Source of the DNA: a virus
Strand: one strand, 5' to 3'
DNA: 64,000 nt
Virus record (IMG/VR): IMGVR_UViG_3300022921_000002
Coordinates: 124,001 to 188,000 of that record
Part shown: piece by piece, positions 18,728-50,602 of the stretch
How the letters are laid out: every line of letters begins with the position of its first letter
Position numbering within the stretch: position 1 is the stretch's first letter
Program-made: the position numbers and the translations under genes
Notes under the pieces: model-generated
Databases searched by the model: none
Told to the model about the DNA's origin: nothing
Seen by the model: only the letters and a program-made list of their open reading frames with translations

Positions 18728-18771
18728 CTGTATCATTTAAGTCACTAAAAATAATCAAAAATTTTATTTGG

Positions 18772-18801
18772 TTGACATTTCCGCAAAATAGTTTATATAT
18801 A
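18772..18801 (+). promoter_or_regulatory. sigma70-type promoter for the tmRNA
   Basis: TTGACA (18772-18777), 18-base spacer, TATATA (18796-18801), 10 bases before the first stem of the tmRNA acceptor piece. Confidence 0.65.
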
Positions 18802-18810
18802 TCTAGTAAT

Positions 18811-19077
18811 CGTTGATACAAGTCAACGCATGGATCGGACCGCGGGGCAGTACCGCGCTGCTCCACCATAAACACATTGACAATAATTTTAGTGTGTTTA
18901 TGATGGGGCAGAACAAGGATCGACGGACGTGAAGAGATGAGAGTAGATTACCGTGTTGGCCTACGTTATTAAGCCAAAAATTTTAATTGCAAATGACAAT
19001 TATAAACCATCTGGATTTGCCCTAGCGGCGTAATCAAAGGGGGTTGGCCACTTACCTAGCAACAGAAAATGTGGCAT
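18811..19077 (+). ncRNA. ssrA: circularly permuted two-piece tmRNA (alphaproteobacterial type)
   Basis: The acceptor piece comes first: stem CGTTGA/TCAACG (18811-18826), T-stem CGCGG/CCGCG (18841-18857), then CTGCTCC-ACCA ending at 18868. A 36-base intervening segment (18869-18904) folds into an 8-bp hairpin, TAAACACA/TGTGTTTA. The coding piece begins GGGGCAG (18905-18911), which pairs with CTGCTCC to give a 7-bp acceptor stem with G3:U70, the alanine identity pair. GGATCGACGG (18917-18926) matches the conserved tmRNA 5' region. The tag frame at 18989-19033 starts at GCA and encodes ANDNYKPSGFALAA plus stop. An H-type pseudoknot follows: GTTG 19043-19046 with CAAC 19060-19063, and GCCAC 19047-19051 with GTGGC 19071-19075. 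Exact mature ends are not determined. It should rescue stalled ribosomes together with host SmpB. Confidence 0.92.
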
Positions 19078-19105
19078 ATTTTTAACAAACAATAAAGGAA
19101 GTAAT

Positions 19106-19900
19106 ATGACCAAATTTCTATCAACAACAGCCCTTGTATTTGCGGGTACAGCGGCATTTGCAGATCAAGCAACAACACCAGCAGTCACACTTAGTGGCGA
19201 AATTGAAACAGTAATCGCTGAAGGTCTGAATGATAAATGGGGTGCAACTACTTCATTCGGTTTTGATGGCGCTTTGACAAACGGCGCTGCAACAGGTTCA
19301 ATGGAATTTGTTGTTGACTCTGATAATGATCTAACACTTGACGGTTGGTCAATGGGTACTAATGTTGCAGGAGTTGCAATGTCTTTTGGTGACCAAGGTA
19401 ACATTTGGTTTGACACAGAATCTGGTGCGACAATTGAAGAACCAACAATGGCAGATGAAAGCTTGTCTCTCGGTGTAGGTAGTGCAACCGTTGCGTTGGC
19501 ATTCACTGATATTGGTACGGACGTAACTGATATTGCTAACGTACAAGGTGCATACGGTCTGAACGTTGGCATTGCTAATATAACTGCAGCAGGTGATTAC
19601 AACATTGATTCCGAAGAATGGGTAGTTGGTGGCCGCGCTGATACAGCAGGAATGCTTGACAGTGTTCGTCTAGGTGGTGCCGCAACATACGGTTCTGCGT
19701 CAGAGAACATTGCTTTTGAAGCAGATGCTACTGTAATGGGCCTGACTGCATATGTTGCAGGTGACCAGGATGATCTTGCACAAAATATCGGTGGTTCATA
19801 TACATATGACCTAGGTGGTATTGATCTAAAAGGTGCTGTTGACTATGACATTGATGCAGAAACATATGCACCATCTGTAACAGCGACATTCGCATTTTAA
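19106..19900 (+). CDS. small outer-membrane porin-like protein
   Basis: A 264-residue protein with a clear signal peptide (hydrophobic run, cleavage after AAFA) and alternating short hydrophobic/polar strands throughout, ending in the C-terminal phenylalanine (SVTATFAF) that marks outer-membrane beta-barrels for the BAM machinery. It resembles short Gram-negative porins of marine alphaproteobacteria. As a phage gene it could replace or mask a host receptor or alter nutrient permeability. It follows the tmRNA, shares its likely promoter region, and ends in a strong terminator. Confidence 0.78.
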   Translation: MTKFLSTTALVFAGTAAFADQATTPAVTLSGEIETVIAEGLNDKWGATTSFGFDGALTNGAATGSMEFVVDSDNDLTLDGWSMGTNVAGVAMSFGDQGNIWFDTESGATIEEPTMADESLSLGVGSATVALAFTDIGTDVTDIANVQGAYGLNVGIANITAAGDYNIDSEEWVVGGRADTAGMLDSVRLGGAATYGSASENIAFEADATVMGLTAYVAGDQDDLAQNIGGSYTYDLGGIDLKGAVDYDIDAETYAPSVTATFAF

Positions 19901-19926: not shown

Positions 19927-19956
19927 GGGGTGGCATTAATTTGTCACCCCTTTTTT
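19927..19956 (+). terminator. rho-independent terminator after the porin gene
   Basis: GGGGTG (19927-19932) pairs with CACCCC (19945-19950), 12-base loop, then TTTTTT. Confidence 0.88.
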
Positions 19957-19959
19957 CAT

Positions 19960-19967
19960 TATAAATA
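19960..19967 (+). promoter_or_regulatory. T4-type late promoter box TATAAATA
   Basis: Exact TATAAATA right after the porin terminator and 29 bases before the heme oxygenase start, suggesting late expression of that gene. Confidence 0.7.
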
Positions 19968-19996
19968 ACTATATCATACCACGGAGGAAATTTATA

Positions 19997-20536
19997 ATGA
20001 GCAACGAGTTGAAAAAATTAACGTGGGATCATCATCAAGCAGCAGAACGGCGGGCATTTGCTCGTAAGCTTTTAAGAGGCGAGTTATCGGACTACGAATA
20101 TTATATATTCCTGGTCTGCCAATGGCACAATTATACACCACTTGAAAATGCTGTTATTATTCCACCTAATCTCAATGCTATATATCGAGCGGACCGTATC
20201 AAAGCTGATATGCAGGAACTCGAAAAACTACACGGATTTGGCCACCCATCGGCATTACCAACATCCGTAAAAGAATACCAAAACCATATTGGTCAACTTA
20301 CCGAATCTGAAAACAATCATGGTTTGCTTGCCCATATGTATACTAGGCATTTTGGTGAACTACACGGTGGACAAATAATCAAAAAGAAAGCACCGGGCTC
20401 AGGTACTATGTATGAGTTTGAAGGTGATAAAGAATTGCTTATCTCAGAGTTTAGAAAACTTCTTGACGATAGCATGGCACCCGAGGCAAAAAAGTGTTTT
20501 GAATTTGCCTCAAAATTATTTGATGAATTGTCATAA
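19997..20536 (+). CDS. ho1: heme oxygenase (biliverdin-producing)
   Basis: Opens heme to biliverdin, CO and iron, using ferredoxin or another reductant. The N-terminal LTWDHHQAAERRAF (residues 8-21) contains the axial-His region of HO1 proteins. HMYTRHFGELHGGQIIKKK (about 114-132) corresponds to the conserved HxYxRxLGxLxGGQ distal helix. At 179 residues it is slightly shorter than cellular HO1 (about 210-240), as phage versions often are. GGAGG lies upstream of the ATG. A bilin reductase follows after one small gene, so biliverdin is probably reduced further. Confidence 0.88.
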   Translation: MSNELKKLTWDHHQAAERRAFARKLLRGELSDYEYYIFLVCQWHNYTPLENAVIIPPNLNAIYRADRIKADMQELEKLHGFGHPSALPTSVKEYQNHIGQLTESENNHGLLAHMYTRHFGELHGGQIIKKKAPGSGTMYEFEGDKELLISEFRKLLDDSMAPEAKKCFEFASKLFDELS

Positions 20537-20541
20537 TATAA

Positions 20542-20570
20542 TTGACAATCCAAGTTTTGTGATATAAAAT
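20542..20570 (+). promoter_or_regulatory. sigma70-type promoter for the bilin reductase operon
   Basis: TTGACA (20542-20547), 17-base spacer, TAAAAT (20565-20570), 37 bases before the ATG at 20607. Confidence 0.72.
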
Positions 20571-20606
20571 AATACTATAATACAACATATTCTAAGGAGG
20601 AATCAA

Positions 20607-20774
20607 ATGCAAGATAACGCATTAGAAGACATTAACCTTAAACCTAAGAAACGTGCAGATCGACTTTCAAGAAGTATCAGCGCAAGGCGAAGGCGGAAAA
20701 TGTTGAAACAAGTAAGAGAAACGCGCTTACTAAACGCATATGCCAAATTGAAAAGGGCACGCAGAAAGAAATGA
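20607..20774 (+). CDS. small very basic protein between heme oxygenase and bilin reductase
   Basis: A 55-residue protein with the strong site AAGGAGG and ATG at 20607. It is extremely rich in Arg and Lys (ISARRRRKMLKQVRE; LKRARRKK at the end), so nucleic-acid binding is plausible. Its stop overlaps the ATG of the bilin reductase (ATGA), implying coupled translation. Family unknown. Confidence 0.65.
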   Translation: MQDNALEDINLKPKKRADRLSRSISARRRRKMLKQVRETRLLNAYAKLKRARRKK

Positions 20775-21454
20775 CACCACTATGGGATCGGCTTAACAGC
20801 TATGCTGAATACATATCAAATTCATTTGATAATAAGTTTAAGCGATATGATAACCAAAAATATACTGATGATATGCACTTTCCTGGATGGACTGATACCT
20901 TTTGGAATTCAGATCAAATCTACAAAGCGCATTTGAAAACCATTGTACCAGAAAACGGTAAAGGTTTATGGTTGATGCACGTTAACGTATTTCCAAAAGC
21001 AAATATTGAATTACCTATTCTTGGGTTTGATATTGTTGCCGGTCCCAAAAAGATTACAGGATCATTTATGGACTTTTCACCATTGTTAGGTTTTGCACAT
21101 CCTTACCATGATTATATGGAACGGCGAGTTGCTAACCTAGAATGGAATAAACCACGTGAATTACCACCGTGGGCAAAAGAAATCTTTTCAAGTGATATGC
21201 TTGCGGTTGGTAATATTAATACTGATGATGAGCTTAATCAGTTTATACAAGTGACAACTGATTTGGTAGATTATTATCTCGACAACCTTGATGATAACAC
21301 ATTTTACAGTCGGCGTGAAACAACACCTCTATTAAATAAGTATTGTCAAAATCAAAAATTAAATCCACATTTGCACCGATCCATTTTAGCAATGGGTATA
21401 TCCGAAGAAGATAAAGATGAATATGTAAATAACGTGCTATTCGAGGAGATTTAA
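20771..21454 (+). CDS. pcyX: ferredoxin-dependent bilin reductase, PcyX/PebS-like
   Basis: A 227-residue member of the FDBR family (PcyA, PebA, PebB, PebS, PcyX). Family features seen: ANIELPILGFDIVAGPKK, then GSFMDFSPLLG carrying the candidate catalytic Asp, PWAKEIFSSDMLAVG, and the C-terminal hallmark KDEYVNNVLFEEI. The length fits phage PebS/PcyX (about 230). The enzyme would reduce biliverdin to a bilin such as phycoerythrobilin with ferredoxin electrons. PcyX is known from uncultured marine phage sequences paired with heme oxygenase, which is the arrangement here. Which member of the family and which product are inferences. Confidence 0.82.
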   Translation: MTPLWDRLNSYAEYISNSFDNKFKRYDNQKYTDDMHFPGWTDTFWNSDQIYKAHLKTIVPENGKGLWLMHVNVFPKANIELPILGFDIVAGPKKITGSFMDFSPLLGFAHPYHDYMERRVANLEWNKPRELPPWAKEIFSSDMLAVGNINTDDELNQFIQVTTDLVDYYLDNLDDNTFYSRRETTPLLNKYCQNQKLNPHLHRSILAMGISEEDKDEYVNNVLFEEI

Positions 21455-22114
21455 ATGGCGTTTTTAGTACATCCCTTGCCACCAGTAAACGTATATGTTA
21501 AAATGGAATATCTATACGATTTGGATTTCGCTGACGACCGAGGATGGGGTAACTTAACTCCTGGCATTTGGATTAGTGTTAAATCAACTCAATCAAAAGC
21601 GTTATATTTTGAAACACTTCTTACAGACTATGGAGCATTATATGATAAATTACCTATATCAGCTTTTGTTTGGAAAGAAGACTTCGATCTTGAAGACCAG
21701 CTTCCACTTGATGTTCTTCAGCTTTGGGATTGTTTTGATTACGACCTTACCGTTATCCAAAAGCCAATCTTGTGTAGGTGTGAGTTTTTTGGAAAAGACA
21801 AAAAGATGCACGCAGGAGAATACGAATTTACCATAGATAATGCTCACAGAGATAACGCATATCTCGATACTAATTTTTCAGAACACGATCCAGAGCACAA
21901 ATCATTTAATGTTATTAGACTTGATAATGGTCAATTCGCTGCTCAACCAAACAACAGAGTTATATGGAGAGACAGTTCATTAACACCTGCTAATTTGAAA
22001 CGACCTGATTTTAAAGTGTGTACTCAAAACTACGCAGTAGAAGATCAACCCAAATGGTCGGTTGGCCACACTGATGAATGGCAATATAAAACAAAAGAGG
22101 AAGAAAACGGTTGA
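21455..22114 (+). CDS. conserved hypothetical protein following the bilin reductase (219 aa)
   Basis: The ATG abuts the bilin reductase stop with GAGGAG upstream, so the two are co-translated. It has ISVKSTQSKALYFETLL, KLPISAFVWK, LDVLQLWDCFDYDLTV and QFAAQPNNRVIWRD. The Trp/Asp-rich core suggests a compact beta-rich phage protein. It feels like a family shared by marine T4-like phages, but I cannot name a function or prove a role in bilin use. Confidence 0.75.
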   Translation: MAFLVHPLPPVNVYVKMEYLYDLDFADDRGWGNLTPGIWISVKSTQSKALYFETLLTDYGALYDKLPISAFVWKEDFDLEDQLPLDVLQLWDCFDYDLTVIQKPILCRCEFFGKDKKMHAGEYEFTIDNAHRDNAYLDTNFSEHDPEHKSFNVIRLDNGQFAAQPNNRVIWRDSSLTPANLKRPDFKVCTQNYAVEDQPKWSVGHTDEWQYKTKEEENG

Positions 22115-48944: not shown

Positions 48945-50141
48945 ATGGAATATATGAAATTTTTTAAAGACACGGTTGCATCATTTAGAAGCGACGGAAG
49001 ATATCGAGTATTTAATGATATTATCCGTGAAAAGGGTCAGTTTCCTAGGGCTATTTGGTATGGGAAATATGCACCAAAGAATATTGTTAATTGGTGCTCA
49101 AATGATTATTTGGGTATGGGTCAAAACCAATATGTCATAGATGCTATGCATACTGCATTAGATCAAACAGGTTCAGGTTCCGGCGGTACGAGAAATATCG
49201 GCGGAACCTCAGTTTTCCATGTAACACTTGAACGTGAAATTGCAACACTACACCAACGTGAAAACGCATTACTGTTTAGTAGTGCATACGTTGCCAATGA
49301 GTGGGCTCTAATTGCTCTTTCACGCATCATCCCAAACATTTGCTTTATATCTGATAATAAAAACCATGCCTCAATCATTATGGGAGTAAAGCACAGCCGT
49401 GCACCTAAAATGATTTTTAAGCATAATGATATGGCAGATCTCGAGAAATGTTTAAAGGCAGCAAAAAAGAATAAGCAAATTCCTTGCGTATTGTTTGAGT
49501 CCGTATATTCAATGGACGGTGATGTTGCGCCTATTAAAGAAATCGTTGAGTTATCACATAAATATAACGCAATGACTTATATAGATGAAGTCCATGCGGT
49601 TGGTTTGTATGGTCCTACAGGTGCAGGTTATTGTGAACATTTAAATTTATATTCCGATGATATTGATATTATCAACGGCACGTTAGGAAAAGCATATGGG
49701 GTACAAGGCGGGTATATTTCAGGTAAGCAAGAAGTTATTGATGCGATTAGATTGGTTGCATCAGGGTTCATATTCACCACCTCCATGTCACCTGTTATAT
49801 GTGCTGGGGCACTCGCCAGTATAAAATATCTCAAAGACCATTCTTGTCTAAGAGATCAACAACAAGAACGAGTAAAAAAGCTCAGACAAATGTTAGAAGA
49901 AGCAGGATTGAATATACATCCTAATGCTTGTACTCACATTATCCCAGTAATGATTAATGATGCCTTTAAATGTAAAGAAGCATCGGATAGATTACTAAAC
50001 GAATTCGGTATATACATTCAACCGATTAATTCACCAACAGTAGAGGCAGGTACCGAAAGGTTACGTATTGCTCCTACACCATACCATACCGATTTGATGA
50101 TGGTGGAATTAGTCGAAGCGCTGAAAGAAGTATTGAAATGA
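48945..50141 (+). CDS. hemA: 5-aminolevulinate synthase
   Basis: Condenses glycine and succinyl-CoA to ALA (Shemin pathway), first step of heme synthesis in alphaproteobacteria. The 398-residue PLP enzyme has [45 protein letters not shown], and [13 protein letters not shown] with the PLP lysine. The near-diagnostic [14 protein letters not shown] (versus the related KBL/BioF) supports ALAS. It begins 3 bases after nrdA, so it is in the nucleotide operon. The start MEYMKFF fits cellular ALAS starts. The phage also encodes heme oxygenase and bilin reductase (19997-21454). Confidence 0.9.
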
Positions 50142-50182
50142 ATCAATTAGAAAATGCCTTCTTCAGTAAAAAGGAAAAAACT

Positions 50183-50602
50183 ATGAGTAAAGTAAAAAAG
50201 GCATTTTGGTTTTGCCTAGGAATTATTTTGGTAGGTGTGGCATATCTTGGTGTATTACTACCCGGTCTACCTTGGTCAACACCAATTCTAGGTGCAACAT
50301 TCTGTTTTGCCAAATCAAGTGACAGACTGCATAATTGGATTATGAATCATCCACGGTTCGGTCCATTTGTTAAAAACTGGGGTACATACCGTGTATATCC
50401 AACAGCGGCTAAATGGTTGATGGTTGCCGTAATGAGTACATCCTTGGCATTTATGTGGTTTGGTACAGGAAACGAAAAAGCAACATTATATCTGTTTATT
50501 ACTTTTGCCTTAATTGTTACGTGGGCGTGGCGTTATCCAGGATCACAAGAAATTGCCGAAAAAAGAATTGCCGAAGGTAAAAAGATTGGTTGGCTAAAGT
50601 AA
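50183..50602 (+). CDS. DUF454 (YbaN-like) inner-membrane protein
   Basis: I chose ATG 50183, preceded by AAAAAGGA, over an in-frame ATG at 50138 overlapping the hemA stop. The protein (about 139 residues) has three to four membrane helices. GVLLPGLPWSTPILGATFCFAKSSDRLHNW with HPRFGPFVKNW is the DUF454 signature. Function of this family is unknown. Location directly after hemA is notable. Confidence 0.8.
   Translation: MSKVKKAFWFCLGIILVGVAYLGVLLPGLPWSTPILGATFCFAKSSDRLHNWIMNHPRFGPFVKNWGTYRVYPTAAKWLMVAVMSTSLAFMWFGTGNEKATLYLFITFALIVTWAWRYPGSQEIAEKRIAEGKKIGWLK

Follow-up and report, generated by a model that had tools for sequence, protein, structure and literature searches.

We analysed a window of 64,000 nt that forms part of the 221,447-base virus record IMGVR_UViG_3300022921_000002. 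Its plus strand carries a heme oxygenase (HO) gene, a short basic reading frame and a ferredoxin-dependent bilin reductase (FDBR) gene, preceded by a terminator, a promoter motif and a ribosome-binding site. Their coordinates are collected in Table 1.

Table 1. Features of the cassette and associated genes, in window coordinates
Feature	Position	Strand	Evidence or remark
Permuted alphaproteobacterial-type tmRNA	18768..19076 or 18768..19124	+	Rfam RF01849 (alpha_tmRNA) 106.7 bits; ARAGORN
Intrinsic terminator of upstream porin-like gene	19927..19956	+	9-bp stem, TTTTTT; insulates cassette
TATAAATA, T4-type late promoter motif heading cassette	19960..19967	+	sequence; conserved upstream of HO
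GGAGG ribosome-binding site of HO gene	19983..19987	+	sequence
Heme oxygenase, HO-1 type, 179 aa	19997..20536	+	PF01126 E 6e-22; PDB heme oxygenases E 4e-11
55-aa basic (Arg/Lys-rich) protein	20607..20774	+	between HO and FDBR; overlaps FDBR start by 4 nt
Ferredoxin-dependent bilin reductase, 227 aa, sister to PcyX (“K-type”)	20771..21454	+	PF05996 E 8e-18; tree; model
Lys56 codon (PcyA Glu76 / PcyX Asp55 position)	20936..20938	+	Lys in all K-type relatives
His70 codon (PcyA His88)	20978..20980	+	invariant
Asp87 codon (PcyA Asp105, catalytic)	21029..21031	+	invariant
5-aminolevulinate synthase (AlaS, Shemin pathway)	48945..50141	+	TIGR01821 559 bits, cut-off 338.6

Cassette proteins and the K-type branch of bilin reductases

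The HO and FDBR reading frames are both intact at the coordinates that an earlier note on this DNA had given for them. The HO protein scores 78.8 bits against PF01126 (cut-off 23), and its proximal His13 and distal G-E-L-H-G-G-Q helix (G-x-L-x-G-G-Q) are kept in relatives. The FDBR scores 65.4 bits against PF05996 (Fe_bilin_red; cut-off 31), with PcyX (5owg) as its best solved relative (E 4e-39). The structure prediction that had been proposed as a check yielded an FDBR fold: the AlphaFold model, built with 46 relatives, is an alpha/beta/alpha sandwich (pLDDT 94.5, pTM 0.91) that Foldseek matches to PcyA, PcyX, PebB, PebA, phytochromobilin synthase and PebS. Profile matches, intact frames and fold together confirm the pair, and the identities of the two genes are near certain. 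Measured against the nearest relative (L015), dN/dS is about 0.06 for HO (0.014/0.243) and about 0.11 for the FDBR (0.042/0.379). Such strong purifying selection indicates that both are kept as working proteins.

An alignment in PcyA numbering identifies Asp87 and His70 as the catalytic Asp-His pair, which never varies across relatives. The position of PcyA Glu76 differs between the groups: the window protein and all relatives of its branch have Lys there, the entire PcyX clade has Asp, PcyA has Glu, and PebS, PebA and PebB have Ala, Ser or Thr. For convenience, we refer to the branch with Lys at this position as “K-type”. In PcyX the Asp-His pair reportedly suffices, and the Asp at the Glu76 place is said not to be catalytic. 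Glu76 itself is specific to PcyA and is needed for reduction of the 18-vinyl group (PMC10151467).

Scans of IMG/VR yielded 121 contigs with a K-type FDBR and 80 Mosig-like PcyX contigs. The phylogeny suggested in the earlier note places the 227-aa protein within the FDBRs: K-type groups with PcyX against PcyA at 100/100, while PebS and PebA/B lie far outside. The protein had been described as PcyX/PebS-type. The comparison with PebS did not survive the tree; that with PcyX held as far as the grouping goes, but the protein falls outside PcyX proper, since every relative carries Lys at the Asp55 site. K-type is therefore a sister branch of PcyX, and it is not PebS. A first tree did not resolve the branching order of K-type and PcyX. 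In a thinned tree with long branches removed, K-type forms one group at 89/69 and PcyX one group at 97/93, and we regard support for K-type monophyly as moderate.

A bacterial origin of the K-type FDBR was considered and rejected, as bacterial or plasmid homologues were found only in phage-looking MAG contigs. Two remote FDBR-like proteins of the alphaproteobacterial genome G300 (L271 and L273) were likewise dismissed as a bacterial source, since they are without the catalytic motifs; lacking the Asp-His pair, they are perhaps of a pre-PcyA kind. The MAG scans also returned probable phage HO-FDBR contigs in bins assigned to Bacteroidetes, Rhodobacteraceae, Pirellulales and Gammaproteobacteria (L096-L099, L100 and L101), and a cyanobacterial-type PcyA in a MAG titled Bifidobacterium breve (L103, CALPNT020000001.1), likely a mislabelled or contaminated bin.

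Gene neighbourhood, virus and host

Among 113 K-type contigs that do not end immediately upstream of the FDBR, 110 have HO directly before it and the remaining three have less than 940 bp of upstream sequence; HO also directly precedes the FDBR in all PcyX-type contigs (76/76). Adjacent, slightly more distant and frame-overlapping genes are pooled in these counts. Kept in over 120 related contigs, the pair is not a chance arrangement. K-type pairs are located ahead of gp59-gp32-uvsX and PcyX pairs beside gp13/gp14. Only in the main K-type clade do relatives of the 55-aa ORF separate the two genes, and there in most contigs; basal K-type lineages and PcyX phages lack the ORF, which has no Pfam match.

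Several neighbouring genes were evaluated. The ORF at 21455-22114, labelled “ferredoxin” in PHROGs, was rejected as an electron donor: its few Cys residues are scattered, it shows neither an iron-sulphur motif nor a Pfam match, and the label derives from cyanophage records also called purM. Its product (phrog_3704) shares 78% identity with a cyanophage gene that carries both the purM and the ferredoxin annotation; neither fits its sequence. This identity is far above the 45% of the DNA polymerase and suggests exchange between phages. Ferrochelatase and 2OG-Fe(II) oxygenases were excluded as fixed partners, being present in some PcyX phages and absent from K-type contigs. Between the tmRNA and HO lies an ORF (19106-19900) for a porin-like protein with a signal peptide and a C-terminal Phe; related ORFs occur in 37 relatives, and it has no Pfam, PHROG or NCBIfam match. 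The tmRNA itself sits upstream of the cassette in the window. Among contigs with at least 4 kb upstream of the FDBR, a tmRNA is found there in 27 of 44 of the K-type versus 1 of 39 of the PcyX-type, so that it was not retained as a fixed partner. Over 40 related contigs carry tmRNAs with varying tag peptides (e.g. ANDNFAPSGYALAA) upstream of HO-FDBR.

The phage encodes gp23, gp32, gp43, gp59, uvsX, uvsY, uvsW, gp33 and gp45, which agrees with its earlier description as T4-like; its DNA polymerase is ~45% identical to that of the nearest phages in the phage collection, all of them cyanophages. Searches of the whole 221-kb record, run with positive controls, revealed no psbA/D, phycobiliprotein, phytochrome PHY domain, Fer2 ferredoxin or flavodoxin, and motif scans of the record gave no convincing ORF for hli or a 4Fe-4S motif. 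In these searches the reported absence of photosynthesis genes holds for the full record. Elsewhere, a phage gene at L008:15420-17459 (record 115420-117459) joins a CHASE2 sensor to a class III adenylate/guanylate cyclase domain, and the record outside the window (ORFs of L007-L008) encodes homologues of the curli secretion proteins CsgG and CsgF, together with a protein containing a FecR domain.

GapR and DUF1127 proteins are typical of alphaproteobacteria. The phage encodes a GapR-like protein, a DUF1127 protein and a Shemin-type AlaS, and these signs, with the RF01849 tmRNA, make the alphaproteobacterial host assumed in the earlier note likely. The host is probably non-photosynthetic. A Rhodobacteraceae MAG bin includes three K-type contigs, which is weak host evidence.

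Late promoter motif and 5-aminolevulinate synthase

The cassette is headed by TATAAATA; in T4 and in cyanomyoviruses, late promoters have the form TATAAATA/NATAAATA (PMC2984593). Across the window, TATAAATA is not in excess (8 found against 8.6 expected), and all eight copies (8/8) are on the plus strand. In relatives, HO has a late motif no more than about 110 nt ahead of it in 72 of 102 contigs and 31 of 44 clusters, against a background of 3%, and ahead of gp32 in 101 of 103 contigs (44 of 45 clusters). It precedes each of nine other tested genes in at most 1 cluster and is absent from the FDBR, gp59, uvsX and gp41 upstream regions across relatives. Because the flanks differ between clusters, the motif is conserved and not just inherited in an identical stretch. 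A terminator and a late motif of its own upstream of HO make the cassette its own transcription unit. The late coactivator gp33 and the clamp gp45 are encoded in the phage. From the motif, which gp32 shares, we consider the cassette to be probably expressed late or middle-and-late; some cyanophage middle genes also carry the late promoter motif (PMC2984593).

A gene overlooked in the earlier note, encoding AlaS, is located ~27 kb downstream of the cassette in the window and starts 3 nt after a ribonucleotide reductase gene. On the KBL/BioF models the best rival reaches 320 bits, below that model's own cut-off. Eleven K-type records, window included, either extend to about 30 kb downstream or contain AlaS; seven of them have the gene and four are missing it; in the six other positive records it lies 24-29 kb downstream of the FDBR on the same strand. 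We rejected the proposition that AlaS always accompanies HO-FDBR: of 20 AlaS contigs, none has an FDBR over the cut-off, most end before the expected FDBR place, and only three reach at least ~29 kb upstream. Since AlaS is missing from some K-type records and some AlaS contigs have no detectable FDBR, the coupling is partial. Because new heme uses up as much iron as HO later gives back, the presence of AlaS speaks for bilin supply rather than for iron release. A DUF454 gene (50138-50602) overlaps the end of AlaS and follows AlaS in 31 AlaS contigs, a possible functional partner.

Possible roles of the cassette and comparison with known systems

For the activity, product, timing, host ferredoxin use and purpose of the cassette, we infer the following scheme. 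HO would open host heme to biliverdin IXalpha, which the FDBR, with electrons from host ferredoxin, would reduce to an ethylidene-type bilin, a plant-like bile pigment, leaving the 18-vinyl group unreduced. Host ferredoxin is proposed as the donor, no ferredoxin or flavodoxin having been found in the phage. Transcription from the T4-late-type promoter behind the terminator would turn the module on late or middle-and-late, and the phage AlaS would raise flux into the heme pathway, with the bilin, not iron, as the wanted product. That the cassette is a self-contained module by which an alphaproteobacterial T4-like phage makes a vinyl-keeping bilin, likely phycoerythrobilin (PEB), via host ferredoxin is the explanation we favour, with slightly better than even confidence. 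Against it count that no bilin acceptor (phycobiliprotein or phytochrome) was found in the phage, that AlaS is present in only seven of the 11 records, that the CB_2 phage FDBR discussed below makes a different bilin, that the late motif also marks some middle genes of cyanophages, and the 89/69 value for K-type monophyly.

A PEB-type product appears most likely by analogy, given the absence of Glu76 and the PEB made by the sister group PcyX, the closest characterised relative of K-type (PMC11480375). The same two observations weigh against the doubtful but possible alternative that the K-type FDBR makes another bilin, whether phycocyanobilin (PCB), for which the Glu76 needed in 18-vinyl reduction is absent, a two-electron product (for example 15,16-dihydrobiliverdin or phytochromobilin) or a new isomer set by Lys56. 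In favour of this alternative, Lys56 is invariant and unlike the residues of PcyA (E), PcyX (D) and PebS/PebA/PebB (A/S/T), and the FDBR of a peat-bog phage, CB_2, which is also without Asp55 and may or may not be K-type, makes PCB (PMC11480375). A broader and quite improbable reading takes K-type as an FDBR family in its own right, carried by T4-like phages of alphaproteobacteria, where Lys56 would set a regiospecificity unlike that of PcyA, PcyX and PebS and the late bilin would serve a purpose unrelated to photosynthesis.

The candidate purposes include a host photoreceptor, light or oxidative protection, and iron from old heme. In the last case, HO would free iron from existing host cytochromes late in infection and the FDBR would do no more than remove inhibitory or photoreactive biliverdin. 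Iron supply is a published suggestion (PMC11480375), the FDBR never occurs without HO, and Pelagibacter phage Mosig, the nearest cultured relative, has adjoining 2OG-Fe(II) oxygenase genes; however, the AlaS of seven of 11 records would raise heme synthesis and so consume iron, Mosig has a ferrochelatase annotation near its HO-FDBR pair, and a four-electron reductase is a costly disposal route for biliverdin. We consider iron salvage unlikely. Also improbable is a hijacked chromophore, in which a bacteriophytochrome or another bilin protein of the host would carry the reduced bilin in place of biliverdin and its signalling would change. In its favour, the CB_2 HO and PcyA gave a functional phytochrome in E. 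coli (PMC11480375), and with no acceptor found in the phage, one would have to come from the host. A cyanobacterial host whose phycobilisomes are kept supplied by the pair, as in cyanophages, would accord with T4 genes nearest those of cyanophages (DNA polymerase 45%, phrog_3704 gene 78%); set against GapR, DUF1127, AlaS, the permuted tmRNA of alpha type next to the cassette and the absence of psbA, it is very hard to sustain.

Phage cassettes with HO, FDBR and AlaS are a known kind: hemO-pcyA/X-valaS cassettes, some broken with valaS nearby, have been published from marine and freshwater phages (Wegner et al. 2024, PMC11480375), where the CB_2 enzymes were active with PCB as product and the purpose of the cassette was called enigmatic. 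In the literature searched, which did not extend to the first PcyX papers (Ledermann 2016, 2018) or to supplements, neither the Lys-type branch nor its promoter nor the neighbouring tmRNA was described, and we claim no priority. What phages gain from bilins when their hosts lack phycobilisomes is recognised as an open question (PMC11480375). The K-type branch is large and narrows it: with hosts that are probably alphaproteobacteria, HO and FDBR always paired, a promoter of T4-late type, AlaS often present and an active-site Lys that does not vary, the question turns into tests of product, timing and the need for iron.

Among known systems, PebS of cyanophage P-SSM2 is likewise a four-electron phage FDBR, paired with a phage HO in the literature, but belongs to the PebA/PebS branch, far from the window FDBR. 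PcyA of cyanobacteria and cyanophages shares the fold and the Asp105/His88 equivalents, whereas the window FDBR lacks Glu76 and Asp220 and falls in a separate clade at 100/100. The cassettes of Wegner et al. 2024 similarly unite all three functions in one phage; in the window, AlaS is 27 kb away by ribonucleotide reductase and the FDBR is K-type, although their contigs may include K-type. PcyX (5owg, EBK42635; Pelagibacter phage Mosig) is alike in its sister-group position, Asp-His pair, C-terminal NPH motif, HO immediately upstream and T4-like phage of a heterotroph. The two enzymes differ in sequence (36% identity) and at the active site (PcyX Asp55, window Lys56), and their genes in setting: the PcyX pair stands beside the gp13/gp14 neck genes, while the window pair stands ahead of gp59-gp32-uvsX, with a 55-aa ORF between HO and FDBR and a late-type promoter of its own.
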